NCBI RefSeq assembly: GCF_014196835.1
Contig: NZ_JACIEK010000001.1
Span: 186,001-250,000, forward strand
DNA length: 64,000 bases
Direction: 5' to 3'
DNA from: Aureimonas pseudogalii
GTDB taxonomy: Bacteria > Pseudomonadota > Alphaproteobacteria > Rhizobiales > Rhizobiaceae
Within the stretch, counting starts at the first letter, position 1. Each line of letters starts with the position of its first letter. The notes beneath the pieces are model-generated. The model was not told the origin of the DNA and made no database searches. It saw nothing but the letters and a program-made list of their open reading frames with translations. The position numbers and the translations under genes are program-made. Below, piece after piece: positions 23,103-41,005 of the stretch.

Positions 23103-23555
23103 TCAGCGCGCTCCTGCTGCGATCTGGACCCGCGCGGGGGCCTCGATCGGGGGAATGGGGCTAACAGTGCCGGCCAGGATCTCGTCCTCGAGCGGAATGA
23201 GAATGCGCAGGCGCTTCAGCGCGTCGAAATAGCGATCGCGCGCCACGAGATCGGCGACGTCCTGCAGGCCCGAGCGGACGGCGAAGGACGAGAAGGCGGC
23301 CAGGAGGGCGGGATAGCTGCGCTCGAAGCTGGCTCGAGAGTCGGCGGCGGTGGCCGGGTCGATCAGCATGAGCTGGACCACGAAGTAGAGCTGGCGGATC
23401 GGCGTGTTGGCGTCCGCTGCCTGCATCACGTGGCTTTCGAGCAGAAAGGTCACGTCGTTCATGAATTCCAGATGCGTCTTGCGGTCGACCCGCATGACCG
23501 CGCCGTTGACGAAGATGCGTTCACCGGCGCGCAGCGTGATGCGAAGCGTCGACAT
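23103..23555 (-). CDS. flbT: Flagellin mRNA regulator FlbT
   Basis: A 150-residue cytoplasmic protein of the FlbT family. FlbT in Caulobacter and Brucella acts post-transcriptionally on flagellin mRNA through its 5' leader. Family features are LRAGERIFVNGAVMRVDRKT at the N terminus and FLLESHVM. The gene lies between flaF and flgD with gaps of only a few bases. Its likely targets, the two flagellin leaders upstream of 38670 and 40758, carry conserved structure that could cover the ribosome-binding site. Confidence 0.95.
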   Translation of the reverse strand: MSTLRITLRAGERIFVNGAVMRVDRKTHLEFMNDVTFLLESHVMQAADANTPIRQLYFVVQLMLIDPATAADSRASFERSYPALLAAFSSFAVRSGLQDVADLVARDRYFDALKRLRILIPLEDEILAGTVSPIPPIEAPARVQIAAGAR

Positions 23556-23558
23556 CGA

Positions 23559-23909
23559 TCAGGACTCCAGTCCGTCGCGGATCATCTGCGTGATCTCGAT
23601 CATCGGCTGGAAGCTCTCGACGCGGCCGAGCCGGATGGATTCGGCCTCGCGCATGACCCAGAGACCGATGGAGATAAGGCTGGCACGCAGCTCTTCCGGC
23701 AGGGCGTTCTCCGCGCTCGCGAGGTCCTCCACGAGGATCGACCAGAGATTGCGCGTCACGTAGATGGCCTCGATCGCCTCGCGCGAGCGCGGACCGGCGG
23801 TCTCGGCCCGTTCGAGCGAGGCGATCATGTTGTCGAAGGCTTCGCGCTCGCGCTCGCGCGCGGTCGAGGAGCTTTCCTGTGCGACCTCTGCGTAGGAGAA
23901 CTGGTACAT
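23559..23909 (-). CDS. flaF: Flagellar biosynthesis regulator FlaF
   Basis: A 116-residue helical protein that works with FlbT to coordinate flagellin synthesis and secretion. The start MYQFSYAEV is family-typical. GAGG lies about 7 nt before this ATG but only 1-2 nt from an ATG two codons upstream, so 23909 was chosen. The conserved NLWSILVEDLASAENALP segment is in the middle. It is the first gene of flaF-flbT-flgD-fliQ, about 100 bp after flgL. Confidence 0.93.
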   Translation of the reverse strand: MYQFSYAEVAQESSSTAREREREAFDNMIASLERAETAGPRSREAIEAIYVTRNLWSILVEDLASAENALPEELRASLISIGLWVMREAESIRLGRVESFQPMIEITQMIRDGLES

Positions 23910-23977
23910 TCTCATTCCTCGGTACGTGGGAGCGTCATGTCCCAGATCAGAACGGTTTCGGTCGGCGGGAAGCCGTA

Positions 23978-36132: not shown

Positions 36133-38670
36133 TTAACGGAAGAGCGACAGGATGTTCTGCGACGACTGGTTGGCGATCGAGAGCGCCTGCACGCCGAGCT
36201 GCTGCTTCGTCTGCAGAGCCTGAAGGCGGGTCGACTCTTCCGACATGTCGGCGTCGATGAGGTTGCCGACGCCCTTGTCGATCGTGTCCATCAGCGTGTT
36301 CACGAAGGACTTCTGCATGTCGATACGCGAGGCAACGGCACCGAGGTTCGACGCGGCCGTGGTGACGGAGTTGATCGCGTTGTTGACGACCGTAATGTAG
36401 GCCGACAGCACCTTCGAGATGTCGGCGCCCGACGTCGCGCGCGCTGCCGTCAGGCCGGCGTCGGAGATATCAATCTTATCGACCGAGATCTGGTTCGCAC
36501 CCTGCGACGCCTGCACGCTAGTGATCGCGACGGAGGAACCCGCTCCGATCTTCGTGCTGGTCAGCACCAGCTTGTTGAGATCGACGCCCGTACCGACCTT
36601 CGCCGTAACGCCCGTCACCTTGGCTGCAGTCAGCGCTTCCGACATCACGCTCGCGAACTGCGTCGCATTCGTGATCTTGCCGTCCGTCACAGGCACGGTC
36701 GGCGTGGAAAGCACCTTATTCACGAGCGCCTGATCGATCGTCACGAGCTTCGAAGTCGTGGCACCATCCACCGCGATGTTGAAGTAAAGGTTGTCGTTGG
36801 CGTCAAGGGTGATGCCGGCAACCGGGAACACGGCTCCGGTGGTTGCCGTGCCGACCGTCGCCACGTTCCGGAAGTTCGTCCCGGTCTTGTTGAGAACGGC
36901 ACCCGTCGAGTCTTTGAACAGAACTGAGTCGACGGTAACGGCGGAGGTAGCACCGCTGGTCTTGGACGTGATGAGCAGGTTGTTCGATGAGTCGACCGAG
37001 GCGAAAGCCTTCGCAGTGAAGGCGACATCGCCATTAAGGACGCCCACGAACGCCGAAAGCGAACCGCCTGCTGCAAGGGCACCGGTCTTGATGACCGTGC
37101 CGTCCACCGTCAGACCCATCGTGATCGTGTCGGTGGCGGTGAAGTTCGTCGTCCAGGCCGTCTGCACGTCACCCGTCAACGCCGTTCCGGCGTGAGACTC
37201 AGTAAACCCACTGACGATATCGGAGTTCTTGATGCGACCCGCTGCATCGTTGACGACGACATCCGAGAGCTCGAAGCTACCACCAGTGGCAGAAGATGCG
37301 AACGAGAGCTTAGTTCCGCCTGTGCCACCAACCTGTGTAACCGTTCCGCTCGTAAGGGTGGCCGTCGCGAGCTTTTCTGCAAGCTTGGCATCGCTGACGA
37401 GGTCGGCACCGCTCAAGGTCAGAGTCACTGGGGTACGGATCGTGCCGGCCGTCTTGTAGGAGAACGTCACCGTATCGCCCGCGACGAGACCCGTGCGAGA
37501 TACGGCACCGGTCACGACGCGGCCTTCAGTGGCGATGGTACCGGTCAAGGCCGAACCGTTAACGATGTCACCGGTGCGTGCGACTGCAGTCGAGTTCGTC
37601 CAAGCGCTCAGAGCGATACTAGACGTCGCGCCCGTGTTGCCGGTGGTCGACAGGAACTTGATGGTCGTGCCGGACGAAACATCGACCTTCACCTTGCCGG
37701 CCAGAGCACTTGCGTCGATCGTGGTCTGGAGCAGCGCTCCCATGTCCGCGAGCGAGGCGCTGGCCAAGCCGGCCGGAACGACCGCGTTCGTGTCGAGAGC
37801 AACGCCAACGCCATCGACCGTGAGGGTGAACGTGAAGTCGTTACCCGTCTGAACCTGCGTAGCGCCGGACGTCGCGAAGGTCGCCGTCTCGAACTGGGCA
37901 CGGTTACCACCGGTGTTCGCAGCCGCGACAGCGGCATTGGCTGCGCCGACCGAGCCCGCAGTCGTCTCGATGGTATTGCCGTCGAGCTTGCCCGTGGTGC
38001 CCGCCGCGGTTAGACCAGCATCGAGATTGTTGCCCGAGGCGCTCGGAGTGCCGCCGATCGTCAGATCCTTGCCAGTGACCGATTCCTTGAGGTTCTGCAA
38101 GTTGTCGAGGATGCCGTTCTTGCCGACGACCGTCGAACTGTCGAACAGCGCGACGCCGCCGATGGCGACGTCCACCGTGCCGATGGCGACGGAGTTGTTG
38201 GCGTCACGGGCGAAGGAGGCGACGATCTTCTTCGTGGCGTCGTAGTCGACCGCTTCGGAATTGACCGAGAGCCAGTTTTCGCCGGAGAACACCGACGAGC
38301 CGGCGATCGAGAGGAGCTGCTTCTGGAGTTCGCCGATCTCAGACTGGATGACGTTCTTATCGACGCCCGGCTGCGTGGCGGCGGTGAGCTTGGCCTTGAT
38401 CTCGTCGAGAACGTCCTTGGCCTTGTTGAGGCCCTGGTAGGCGACGTCGACGGTGGCCGAGCCGAGGCCCAGCGCGTCCTTGACGGTGCCGAGCGACTTG
38501 TTGTCGGACTTCAGGGTCGTGGAGATCGCCCAGTAGGCCGCGTTGTCCTTGGCTTCGCCGATCTTGAGACCGGTCGAGATGCGGCCCTGCGTCGCGTCGA
38601 GCTGGTTGTTGGTCTGCTGGAGAGTGCGGAGCGCCGTGATGGCTGCGACGTTGGTGTTCACGCTAGTCAT
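36133..38670 (-). CDS. Large flagellin (845 aa)
   Basis: Filament subunit with typical flagellin ends: residues 1-140 (MTSVNTNVAAITALRTLQQT start) and the last 100 (RIDMQKSFVNTLMDTIDKGV, ending SSQNILSLFR) form the D0/D1 core. The 600-residue middle is Thr/Ser/Ala/Val-rich and domain-like, making this more than twice the usual rhizobial flagellin length (320-400). The middle (about 36400-38000) has visibly lower G+C and different codon use than the conserved ends. The ends are nearly identical to those of the flagellin encoded next to it. The leader carries the TGTCCC/GGGACA pairing. It is likely to build a thick or decorated filament. Confidence 0.95.
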   Translation of the reverse strand: MTSVNTNVAAITALRTLQQTNNQLDATQGRISTGLKIGEAKDNAAYWAISTTLKSDNKSLGTVKDALGLGSATVDVAYQGLNKAKDVLDEIKAKLTAATQPGVDKNVIQSEIGELQKQLLSIAGSSVFSGENWLSVNSEAVDYDATKKIVASFARDANNSVAIGTVDVAIGGVALFDSSTVVGKNGILDNLQNLKESVTGKDLTIGGTPSASGNNLDAGLTAAGTTGKLDGNTIETTAGSVGAANAAVAAANTGGNRAQFETATFATSGATQVQTGNDFTFTLTVDGVGVALDTNAVVPAGLASASLADMGALLQTTIDASALAGKVKVDVSSGTTIKFLSTTGNTGATSSIALSAWTNSTAVARTGDIVNGSALTGTIATEGRVVTGAVSRTGLVAGDTVTFSYKTAGTIRTPVTLTLSGADLVSDAKLAEKLATATLTSGTVTQVGGTGGTKLSFASSATGGSFELSDVVVNDAAGRIKNSDIVSGFTESHAGTALTGDVQTAWTTNFTATDTITMGLTVDGTVIKTGALAAGGSLSAFVGVLNGDVAFTAKAFASVDSSNNLLITSKTSGATSAVTVDSVLFKDSTGAVLNKTGTNFRNVATVGTATTGAVFPVAGITLDANDNLYFNIAVDGATTSKLVTIDQALVNKVLSTPTVPVTDGKITNATQFASVMSEALTAAKVTGVTAKVGTGVDLNKLVLTSTKIGAGSSVAITSVQASQGANQISVDKIDISDAGLTAARATSGADISKVLSAYITVVNNAINSVTTAASNLGAVASRIDMQKSFVNTLMDTIDKGVGNLIDADMSEESTRLQALQTKQQLGVQALSIANQSSQNILSLFR

Positions 38671-38678
38671 TGGATGGG

Positions 38679-38706
38679 TGTCCCATAAACTGTCCGAAAA
38701 GGGACA
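38679..38706 (-). promoter_or_regulatory. Ribosome-site-sequestering hairpin, large flagellin leader
   Basis: On the mRNA strand TGTCCC (38706-38701) can pair with GGGACA (38684-38679), 16 nt apart. GGGACA is the only Shine-Dalgarno-like element and lies 8 nt before the ATG. The same arrangement occurs in the second flagellin gene. Confidence 0.55.
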
Positions 38707-38745
38707 TTCTGGATCGAGCCAGCATAACGGCGCGGCATCATGCCT
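38701..38745 (-). promoter_or_regulatory. Conserved flagellin leader element (copy 1)
   Basis: A 45-nt stretch that matches 40 of 45 positions, without gaps, in the leader of the other flagellin gene (40786-40830). It includes CTGG-N6-CCAG. It is a candidate target of FlbT/FlaF control. Confidence 0.65.
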
Positions 38746-38778
38746 TCGATCGGCTCCGTCTCTTGGAAGAGGATCGAT

Positions 38779-38812
38779 CCGCTATGACCTCAATCTAGAG
38801 GACACCCTTTAA
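38779..38812 (-). promoter_or_regulatory. Candidate flagellin promoter (large flagellin)
   Basis: TTAAAG-N20-CATAGCGG on the minus strand, about 110-140 nt before the start codon. The same two blocks occur before the other flagellin gene with N21. The sigma factor is not identified. Confidence 0.5.
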
Positions 38813-38889
38813 CGGGCCGTGAAAGCGTCAGTCTCGGAACAGATTTCGTCGCGTTCGGCTTAGCATTTCGTCGCGAGGCCCGGACATGC

Positions 38890-38922
38890 GAAAGCCCCGG
38901 CGCCTGTCGGCACCGGGGCTTG
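38890..38922 (-). terminator. Terminator of the 603-aa flagellin gene
   Basis: A 9-bp stem AAGCCCCGG/CCGGGGCTT (38892-38900 with 38913-38921), followed on the minus strand by TTTCG. It lies 26 nt past the flagellin stop. Confidence 0.85.
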
Positions 38923-38946
38923 GGATGTCTCCGACAGCCTGTCGTC

Positions 38947-40758
38947 TTACTGCTGGAAGAGCTGCAGGATGTTCTGCGAGGACTGGTTGGCGATGGAGAG
39001 CGCCTGCACGCCGAGCTGCTGCTTGACCTGCAGGGCCTGGAGCTTGGTCGATTCCTCCGACATGTCGGCGTCGATCAGGCCGCCGACACCCTTCTCGATC
39101 GTGTCCATCAGCGTGTTGACGAAGGACTTCTGCATGTCGATGCGGGCCGCCACGGCGCCGAGGTTGGAGGCCGCCGTCGTCACCTTGTTGATCGCGGCGT
39201 TGACGATCGCCGTGTAGGCCTTGAGCACCGTCAGGATCTTGTCGCCGGTGTCGGCGCCCGAGGCGGTCATCGCGCTCGTCGAGATGTCGATGTCGATCAC
39301 GGAGACCTGCCGCCCGCCACCGCTGGCGCTCATGTTGGAGATCGCCAGCGCCGCTTTGGCGCCTGCGACGTTGGAGGTGGAGATGACGAGGTTGGGGCCG
39401 ACCATCTTGACGTCGGCATTCGTGATGTTCGCCGCCTTCACCGCGGCGGCCAGCACCTTCTGGTAGTCGTTGATCGTTGCGATCGAACCGTTGGTGACGG
39501 GCGTCGTCGGGGTCGACAGCGTCTTGTTGACGAGCGCCTGATCGATGCGGACGGTCTTGGCGCCGGTCTCGTCGTTGATCTGGAGGTCGAAGACGATCGT
39601 GTCGTCCTTGTCGAGGACGAGCGGCTGGAAGGCGCCCGACGCGACGGTGATCTCGGCGGGTTCGCTGGTCACGAAGTCCGCGCCCGCAGCCGCGGTGCCC
39701 GACCCGGCGAACAGACCGACCGTCGTCTTGGCGGCGCCGGAGGACGTGGCGAGCGAAACGGCCATGATGCGCACGGTCGAAGGCGTCGTCGAACTGCCTG
39801 TCACGGCACTTGTGAAGATCAGCGTTGCGCCGCTATCGCTTACGGCGACGGCCGGGTTGGCGTTGTCGAGCGCCGCGGCCAGCGTCGGCATATCCTTGAA
39901 CTCGTTGACGGAGGGGGTGCCGCCTGCGACGCGCGTCATCGTTCGCGTGTAGCTCGTTCCCTGAACCTCGTAGCGGATCGTCAGCTTGTCGCCATCGGCG
40001 ATCTTCGAAAGATCCACGTTGGTGGTCGTCACCGCGGCCTGCGCAGCATTGCTGGACACGAGCGTTCCCGCGCTGCCCGCCACCGTCGCAGCCGTCGCCG
40101 GCAAACCACCCGTCAGCGTGTTGCCGGACGCCGTGGACGTACCGCCATAGGCGATGTCGCGGCCCGTGGCGTCCTTGAGGCTGGCGTGGGAGTCGAGAAT
40201 GGCGTCCTTGCCCGCGACCGTGGAACTGTCGAACAGCGCGAGATTGCCGATCGAGACGTCCACGGTGCCGATGGCGACCGCATTGTTGCCGTCGCGCGAG
40301 AACGAGGCGACGATCTTCTTCGTGCCGTTGTAATCCGTGGCGTTGCTGTCGACGGAGAGCCAGTTTTCGCCGGAGAACACCGAGGAGCCGGCGATCGAGA
40401 CGAGCTGCTTCTGAAGTTCGGCGATTTCCGACTGGATCACGTCGCGATCGACGCCGGGCTGCGTCGCCGCGGTGAGCTTGGCCTTGATCTCGTCGAGCAC
40501 GTCCTTGGTCTTGTTCAGACCCTGGTAGGCGACGTCGACGGTGGCGGTGCCGAGGCCGAGCGCGTCCTTCACGGTGGCGAGCGACTTGTTGTCGGACTTC
40601 AAGGTCACCGAGATCGCCCAATAGGCGGCGTTGTCCTTGGCCTCGCCGATCCTCAGGCCCGTCGAGATGCGGGCCTGGGTCTGGTCGAGGGCGGTGTTCG
40701 TCTGCTGCAGGGTGCGCAGAGCGGTGATCGCGGCTGCATTGGTGTTGACGCTTGCCAT
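38947..40758 (-). CDS. Flagellin (603 aa)
   Basis: Second filament subunit. N-terminal residues 1-140 (MASVNTNAAAITALRTLQQT) and C-terminal 100 residues (ending SSQNILQLFQQ) are almost the same as in the 845-residue flagellin downstream, while the middle about 360 residues differ, so the two genes arose by duplication and then exchange or drift of the surface domains. At 603 residues it is also larger than most rhizobial flagellins. It is monocistronic, ended by a good terminator, and has the same promoter-like blocks and leader hairpin as the large flagellin. Confidence 0.96.
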   Translation of the reverse strand: MASVNTNAAAITALRTLQQTNTALDQTQARISTGLRIGEAKDNAAYWAISVTLKSDNKSLATVKDALGLGTATVDVAYQGLNKTKDVLDEIKAKLTAATQPGVDRDVIQSEIAELQKQLVSIAGSSVFSGENWLSVDSNATDYNGTKKIVASFSRDGNNAVAIGTVDVSIGNLALFDSSTVAGKDAILDSHASLKDATGRDIAYGGTSTASGNTLTGGLPATAATVAGSAGTLVSSNAAQAAVTTTNVDLSKIADGDKLTIRYEVQGTSYTRTMTRVAGGTPSVNEFKDMPTLAAALDNANPAVAVSDSGATLIFTSAVTGSSTTPSTVRIMAVSLATSSGAAKTTVGLFAGSGTAAAGADFVTSEPAEITVASGAFQPLVLDKDDTIVFDLQINDETGAKTVRIDQALVNKTLSTPTTPVTNGSIATINDYQKVLAAAVKAANITNADVKMVGPNLVISTSNVAGAKAALAISNMSASGGGRQVSVIDIDISTSAMTASGADTGDKILTVLKAYTAIVNAAINKVTTAASNLGAVAARIDMQKSFVNTLMDTIEKGVGGLIDADMSEESTKLQALQVKQQLGVQALSIANQSSQNILQLFQQ

Positions 40759-40764
40759 AGGGGC

Positions 40765-40791
40765 TGTCCCGGAAAGAAACGAATGGGGACA
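40765..40791 (-). promoter_or_regulatory. Ribosome-site-sequestering hairpin, second flagellin leader
   Basis: TGTCCC (40791-40786) can pair with GGGACA (40770-40765), 15 nt apart, as in the large flagellin. GGGACA ends about 7 nt before the ATG. The loop sequences differ between the two genes. Confidence 0.55.
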
Positions 40792-40830
40792 TTCTGGGTC
40801 GAACCAGCACAGCGGCGCGGCGTCATGCCT
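40786..40830 (-). promoter_or_regulatory. Conserved flagellin leader element (copy 2)
   Basis: Matches 38701-38745 at 40 of 45 positions, ungapped. Confidence 0.65.
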
Positions 40831-40854
40831 TTGATCACCATTCAGATGATCAAC

Positions 40855-40889
40855 CCGCTATGCACACATATTTACTTGATCGTCTTTAA
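40855..40889 (-). promoter_or_regulatory. Candidate flagellin promoter (603-aa flagellin)
   Basis: TTAAAG-N21-CATAGCGG on the minus strand, matching the blocks before the large flagellin. The surrounding sequence is A+T-rich for this genome. Confidence 0.5.
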
Positions 40890-41005
40890 GAGAAAGTAAA
40901 TGCCGCTGCCGTCGCCGGATCAGTCCTTAATCTCTGCTTACCGTCCGTGGTTTTTCCCCGCTCCTGTGCGGTCGGCCCCATGCAAATCGTCGAGCCTGGG
41001 CATCG

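Follow-up and report, generated by a model that had tools for sequence, protein, structure and literature searches.

As judged from the sequence, both flagellin messages encoded in a 64,000-nucleotide (nt) stretch of Aureimonas pseudogalii DNA (contig NZ_JACIEK010000001.1, positions 186,001 to 250,000; the whole stretch is hereafter called the window) begin with one conserved RNA of about 110–120 nt, folded into five helices, P1 to P5. This RNA fold is common to the flagellin messages of this bacterium and of many relatives, and is apparently undescribed. As its last helix usually covers the ribosome start site, control of when the filament protein is made is likely to lie in the leader. Overall, we believe that this is probably a conserved cis-regulatory leader RNA that gates flagellin translation, with the protein FlbT as the leading, yet unproven, factor acting on it. 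The features concerned are listed here; R1 is the covariance model of the full leader and R2 that of its core.

36133..38670, minus strand: flagellin gene 1, an open reading frame (ORF) of 845 amino acids (aa) with its ATG at 38670 (PF00669, 105.8 bits)
38947..40758, minus strand: flagellin gene 2, an ORF of 603 aa with its ATG at 40758 (PF00669, 105.8 bits)
38668..38799, minus strand: structured leader of flagellin 1 (R1, 91.5 bits; leader in the training set)
38702..38801, minus strand: leader core of flagellin 1 (R2, 74.1 bits; leader in the training set)
38724..38785, minus strand: P1–P3 region of flagellin 1, P1 enclosing P2 and P3 (from the alignment, coordinates counted by hand)
38785–38779 with 38730–38724, minus strand: P1 of flagellin 1, AUAGCGG with CCGUUAU
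38777–38772 with 38751–38746, minus strand: P2 of flagellin 1, UCGAUC with GAUCGA
38744–38734, minus strand: P3 of flagellin 1, GGC-AUGAU-GCC
38709..38722, minus strand: P4 of flagellin 1, CUGG-CUCGAU-CCAG
38679..38706, minus strand: P5 of flagellin 1, UGUCCC (38706–38701) with GGGACA (38684–38679), over the ribosome-binding region
38792..38798, minus strand: promoter-like box CTAGATT of flagellin 1, just upstream of P1, putatively −10-like
40756..40875, minus strand: structured leader of flagellin 2 (R1, 94.0 bits; leader in the training set)
40787..40877, minus strand: leader core of flagellin 2 (R2, 75.7 bits; leader in the training set)
40809..40861, minus strand: P1–P3 region of flagellin 2, P1 enclosing P2 and P3 (from the alignment, coordinates counted by hand)
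40861–40855 with 40815–40809, minus strand: P1 of flagellin 2, AUAGCGG with CCGCUGU
40853–40848 with 40836–40831, minus strand: P2 of flagellin 2, UUGAUC with GAUCAA
40829–40819, minus strand: P3 of flagellin 2, GGC-AUGAC-GCC
40794..40807, minus strand: P4 of flagellin 2, CUGG-UUCGAC-CCAG
40765..40791, minus strand: P5 of flagellin 2, UGUCCC (40791–40786) with GGGACA (40770–40765), over the ribosome-binding region

A preliminary description of this DNA had noted TGTCCC and its exact complement GGGACA before both flagellin ATGs, with differing loops, and we confirm this: relative to the ATG at 38670, TGTCCC lies at −36 and GGGACA at −14 (loop of 16 nt), and relative to the ATG at 40758 they lie at −33 and −12 (loop of 15 nt), the spacers to the ATG being 8 and 6 nt rather than the 7–8 nt given there. 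GGGACA is the sole ribosome-binding-like element before the AUG of both genes, and within the 64 kb window the pair TGTCCC-N3..30-GGGACA is found only at these two flagellin sites. The proposal of a hairpin over the ribosome-binding region is borne out; what was missed is that P5 forms just the 3′ end of a five-helix leader. The block said to be identical in 40 of 45 positions is about right in its extent (5 differences over the last 46 nt, by hand count), only it abuts TGTCCC instead of lying apart upstream.

The larger structure emerges from the relatives. A search with the flagellin N-terminus, of which the best 80 of 180 matches were used, gave 78 flagellin loci, mostly from Aurantimonadaceae and Rhizobiaceae (the closest among the matches listed being Aureimonas), with a common leader plan: P1 (e.g., CAUAGCGAA...UUCGUUAUG) closes a three-way junction with P2 and the P3 hairpin GGC-AUGAN-GCC; P4, positioned 3′ of P1–P3, forms in relatives as CCGG-N-CCGG, CUGG-N-CCAG, or GACGG-N-CCGUC; and P5 (UGUCCC...GGGACA) lies 3′ of P4 and ends a few nt before the AUG. 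Among 45 full leaders (43 of the 78 loci, picked by eye for the motif, and both window leaders; aligned with MAFFT on sequence alone), 85.2% of cells are paired, two-sided changes occur in 21 of 27 pairs, and covariation is 0.300, against 0.159 when shuffled and at most 0.115 with slid partners. The same holds for 62 cores, a set that includes leaders of many other families and eight chemoreceptor leaders: 87.3% of cells are paired, with two-sided changes in 18 of 20 pairs and a covariation of 0.389 (shuffled 0.190, slid at most 0.176). P3 is paired in every one of the 62 core rows, and its AUGAN loop is nearly invariant. In 125 distinct rows that were selected and fitted by the model, and are hence biased towards structure, the paired share is 91.6%. 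RNAalifold, unaided, returned P1, P2, P3, and P4 in three coherent groups (17, 13, and 21 leaders), plus P5 where it was included.

One could also read the repeats as DNA operator sites and not as RNA structure, P3 (GGCATGATGCC) and P4 being palindromic in DNA as well. From one relative to another, however, the arms of P1 change while still pairing with each other around P2 and P3, an RNA-like nesting, and the block sits downstream of promoter-like boxes and ends at the AUG; we hold DNA operators to be extremely improbable.

The helix over the start, P5, was counted in leaders retrieved by protein alone, as at least 5 pairs with the 3′ arm at most 22 nt from the AUG. In this set, chosen by neither motif nor model, it is present in 62 of 78 leaders, as compared with a mean of 1.1 and a maximum of 5 in 200 rounds of shuffling: P5 is frequent, not universal. 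Leaders from other families have a six-pair P5 in 29 of 29 cases (1.3% when shuffled), once as UGUUCC/GGAACA, but this count is biased, these leaders being the best matches of the P5-containing R1 and the arm being located by a pyrimidine pattern; the fair figure is 62 of 78, since it comes from leaders retrieved by protein alone. P5 pairs hold in 97.2% of cells in the 125 rows, again a biased value because R1 selected and aligned them. The compensatory changes in relatives that the preliminary description had looked to are there, as UGUUCC/GGAACA in L116 and UGUCCU/AGGACA in L025 and L043 (our locus numbers).

Autoregulatory and Shine-Dalgarno-sequestering leaders, such as ribosomal-protein leaders and riboswitches, have a recognition domain and, 3′ of it, an expression platform that covers the ribosome-binding site. 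The flagellin leaders share this layout of domain and platform, including a conserved helix with compensatory changes over the ribosome-binding element, and differ in that the recognition domain, the target genes, and the candidate factor are new here. No conserved alternative pairing that might open P5 was noticed in the leaders. A long-loop helix over the ribosome-binding region is also what an RNA thermometer would look like, with P5 melting in warmth, and temperature had been suggested as a release signal; none of our findings points to it. The six pairs, four of them G-C, are kept across very different genera, a thermometer would not need the large conserved core beside P5, and Rfam gave the leaders no match from any family, whether in window 38600–41000 or in 20 loci out of the 78. 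A thermometer is thus very improbable.

Several observations weigh against the proposed folded leader and its gate. On mixed alignments, RNAalifold returned just P3 and P4, or P3, P4, and P5, with P1 and P2 missing, probably because MAFFT shifts P1 and P2 by one base between clades. P5 is absent by the above test from 16 of the 78 leaders, some of which have a core match, and leaders of further flagellin genes in two Rhizobium-like genomes (L157 and L158, from G061 and G317) have the core without P5. P5 shows two-sided changes at only 3 of its 6 pairs, in 9 cells of the 125 model-selected rows. Folded singly, the flagellin 1 leader gives −38.4 kcal/mol free and −37.8 with P5 forced, and the flagellin 2 leader prefers another fold by 2.7 kcal/mol (−43.6 free, −40.9 with P5 forced), so P5 is favoured in neither. 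Compared with shuffles, the folding energies of both window leaders show no clear gain (z −0.3 to −1.1).

In flagellin 1, several near-equal folds compete, because there is a second GGACA within its P5 loop (window 38671–38706) and a local hairpin, AUGGG-ACA-CCCAU, which also hides GGG and is nearly balanced with P5. We dropped single-sequence folding as evidence, as it was not significant and gave P5 no advantage in either window gene. Of the 1535 ATGs in the window, 222 (14%) are preceded by some exact 6-nt inverted pair with this geometry, and folding is no better than in shuffles, so a single leader alone is unremarkable; what lifts the hairpin above chance is that two leaders keep identical arms around differing loops and, most of all, that relatives conserve it. 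We therefore take the TGTCCC/GGGACA hairpin to be real, and to be the last part of the larger predicted structure.

The models place the structure precisely. R1, whose E-values, like those of R2, are rough, matches the queried flagellin leader in 70 of the 78 loci at E ≤ 0.1 (hand count); 43 of the loci are training members, and outside the training set 27 of 35 are matched. A set of 126 R1 matches (E ≤ 1e-5, 100 chosen sources, leaving out loci without an earlier match and near-duplicates) has a flagellin ORF directly at the model's last triplet in 121 cases and a chemoreceptor (MCP) ORF in 2, by a flagellin profile trained on window flagellin 2 together with ORFs from four of the tested loci; in the remaining 3 the locus ends too soon, in two of these after a flagellin start. 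At 845 and 603 aa, the window flagellins themselves exceed the 260–501 aa of those translated from relatives in other families, and they have a large middle part.

At the other end, upstream of P1, 35 of 62 rows have TTAA or CAAG at −33 to −21 (3.8 on average when shuffled), and 37 of 62 have a TA-rich box resembling a −10 element (17.1 on average when shuffled), the patterns having been chosen after looking at the rows. Given this recurrence of promoter-like boxes upstream of P1, the transcript probably begins near P1; a start downstream of TGTCCC, named in the preliminary description as an objection to the hairpin, is not indicated, as far as sequence allows, since the boxes lie upstream of the whole structure. 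A structure that starts right after the promoter-like boxes, and a core that persists without P5 before several chemoreceptor and some flagellin genes, would suit a 5′-end element of mRNA stability or expression, in which P1 at the transcript start protects the message and P5 is minor or a stand-by site, with no switch. That P5 covers the start region in 62 of the 78 flagellin leaders, where chance would give about 1, speaks otherwise, as does the nearly invariant AUGAN loop, which a plain stabiliser would not need, and we consider such an element unlikely.

Within the order, R2 matches 86 of 297 genomes at E ≤ 1e-3 and 75 at E ≤ 1e-6 (11 of the 86 dropped, hand count); in the genus of the window 13 of 21 genomes have a core match, and in its own genome just the two flagellin copies are found at E ≤ 1e-3. 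In a 240-genome sample of the class, 8 genomes matched, the own genome included. Outside the order, 7 genomes gave 9 weak matches (E from 2.7e-5 to 6.4e-4); the best in each genome was inspected and judged spurious, and for this reason we trust only matches at E ≤ 1e-6. Weak matches within the order either looked spurious on inspection (L136, L137, L138, L140–L143, L159–L161) or were left unclassified (L131, L132, L135, L156).

Rfam 15, at the gathering score, gives no match in the whole 64 kb window, and we found no literature description of a conserved flagellin leader structure in this order, in a search with thin coverage of subscription papers that leaves absence unproven. The flg-Rhizobiales RNA (RF01736), by the accessible part of its description (Weinberg et al., 2010; PMC2864571), is likewise a structured Rhizobiales RNA, and it has a match here at a flagellar gene; identity with it was rejected, since neither window 38600–41000 nor a set of 20 loci out of the 78 gave an RF01736 match at E ≤ 1. 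Among 41 genomes it matched once, below threshold (L093 1501–1607, 34.4 bits, with a gathering score of 55); that match precedes an ORF taken to be flgF and extends into its coding sequence, whereas the flagellin leaders end at the AUG; one match leaves the usual position of the family undefined. Near the flagellin genes of L051 there are also sub-gathering Rfam matches to CC0196 and BjrC68 (1176–1235 and 2456–2522), which are perhaps, at a guess, G+C-rich terminators.

The P1–P4 core also occurs before chemoreceptor genes of some relatives:

L124, 301–433: core in a chemoreceptor leader, with P5
L125, 301–431: core in a chemoreceptor leader, with P5
L126, 1583–1701: core in a chemoreceptor leader, without P5
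L127, 301–418: core in a chemoreceptor leader, without P5
L128, 301–396: core in a chemoreceptor leader, without P5
L129, 301–399: core in a chemoreceptor leader, without P5
L130, 301–421: core in a chemoreceptor leader (genome G274)
L134, 1601–1711: core in a chemoreceptor leader (genome G274)

Only L124 and L125 among these have P5, and there the ATG stands at the model's end; in L126–L129 the chemoreceptor ORF opens about 185–255 nt after the core start, and in G274 the ORFs are at 284 and 291 nt. Three of the core-bearing chemoreceptors have a protoglobin domain (Pfam, covering L124–L127, L130, and L134). Another clear core (G293, L152 1983–2075) precedes a PAS-GGDEF-EAL gene, the ORF of which opens 190 nt after the core start. 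As some chemoreceptor leaders are without P5, the core need not act through P5, a further point on the opposing side. These cores before chemoreceptor and GGDEF-EAL genes speak for a wider role in motility, and a factor other than FlbT may be at work.

FlbT is encoded in the same window as the flagellin genes:

23103..23555, minus strand: flbT (PF07378, 138 bits), of the clade that travels with the leader RNA; candidate trans-acting factor
23559..23915, minus strand: putative flaF, an ORF of 118 aa adjoining flbT, named by gene order and the preliminary description alone

FlbT is present in 210 of the 297 genomes of the order and in 82 of the 86 with the RNA (73 of 75 by the stricter count at E ≤ 1e-6). 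More telling are the 22 RNA genomes with two flbT genes, of which 20 were examined (leaving out G137, with a weak RNA, and G254, with its second copy not listed): in 19 of 20 the RNA is 9–28 kb from exactly one copy, while in G290 the RNA and both copies are all on different contigs. In a tree of hand-chosen proteins, 20 RNA-linked and 20 other FlbTs, all 20 RNA-linked copies fall on one side of a 100/100 branch, which shows that the RNA and one FlbT type travel together. Lateral and subpolar flagellar systems have been described in this order (accessible part of PMC6406911), and the RNA-linked type may belong to the lateral one. The window FlbT is predicted to consist of a small strand domain and a four-helix bundle. 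By eye its N-terminus has a CsrA-like look, which no comparison supported.

CsrA, acting with FliW, represses flagellin in Bacillus and Campylobacter. This too is post-transcriptional control of flagellin at its leader, and GGGACA contains a GGA near the start codon, as CsrA would need; several Rhizobium-type leaders, though, read GGGGC at the GGGACA site, and CsrA (PF02599) was found in none of the 297 genomes of the order, with 3 of 14 control genomes matched. Barring an unrecognised CsrA, we rejected CsrA/FliW control, to which we give next to no probability.

Less favourable to FlbT, 128 of the 210 genomes with FlbT are without detected RNA, and the association with one FlbT clade may merely reflect one inherited gene cluster. 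In G293, moreover, the genome search gave no FlbT and no flagellin match despite the core before the PAS-GGDEF-EAL gene. Together with the cores upstream of chemoreceptor genes, this case would suit some other regulator, be it another motility protein, a small RNA, or a metabolite (cyclic di-GMP, for example), that reads P1–P4 throughout a motility regulon comprising flagellin and chemoreceptor genes and the gene of a cyclic-di-GMP enzyme. Set against it are the presence of FlbT in 73 of 75 RNA genomes, the way the RNA tracks one FlbT clade, and the lack of a match to any known riboswitch family in window 38600–41000 and 20 of the 78 loci; such a regulator is a possibility we would place somewhat short of an even chance, and a little behind FlbT.

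The closest parallel in kind is Caulobacter, for which Anderson and Gober reportedly described, in 2000, an FlbT-regulated flagellin (fljK) mRNA leader. Going by the accessible parts of the papers, Caulobacter FlbT binds flagellin 5′ leaders and represses translation (PMC3930126), a repression that works with the flagellin FljJ and is relieved on FljJ export (PMC7591256), while in Brucella FlbT is a proposed activator; the way FlbT works on flagellin mRNA is called unclear there, and no binding motif is listed (PMC4347634). The systems are alike in having a flagellin 5′ leader, FlbT and its neighbour in the same cluster, and translation as the likely controlled step. They differ in that Caulobacter flagellins are RpoN-dependent according to the review (PMC3930126), and the five-helix structure is absent from those parts of the three accounts (PMC3930126, PMC4347634, PMC7591256). 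The core had no accepted match outside the order in the 240-genome sample of the class, the Caulobacter leader itself not having been compared.

We think it likely that P5 hinders ribosomes from reaching the flagellin start, and that P1–P4 serve as a platform, on which a trans-acting factor would set whether P5 is closed or the mRNA is kept. Tentatively, we identify this factor with the FlbT that belongs to the same flagellar system. It might work together with a flagellin and FlaF, as in Caulobacter, where repression is lifted once the hook-basal body exports the partner flagellin; the sign of its action could be the opposite here, FlbT being a proposed activator in Brucella. Hook completion, by analogy with Caulobacter, would act only through FlbT/FlaF. 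A bolder reading, possible though somewhat doubtful, would make P1–P4 a hitherto unlisted, order-wide RNA family: a shared 5′ “motility tag” that marks the flagellin, chemoreceptor, and cyclic-di-GMP genes belonging to one flagellar lineage and is read by the FlbT of that lineage or another shared factor; P5, added on most flagellin mRNAs, would turn binding into a translational gate, and two systems per cell would be kept apart by only one of them being tagged.

With its nearly invariant hairpin and its gate at the start site, the leader is a defined candidate target for FlbT. The covariance model lets it be found elsewhere. How FlbT acts on flagellin mRNA becomes a testable question in laboratory rhizobia, and the leader hints at a way in which a cell that has two flagellar systems might control each of them separately.

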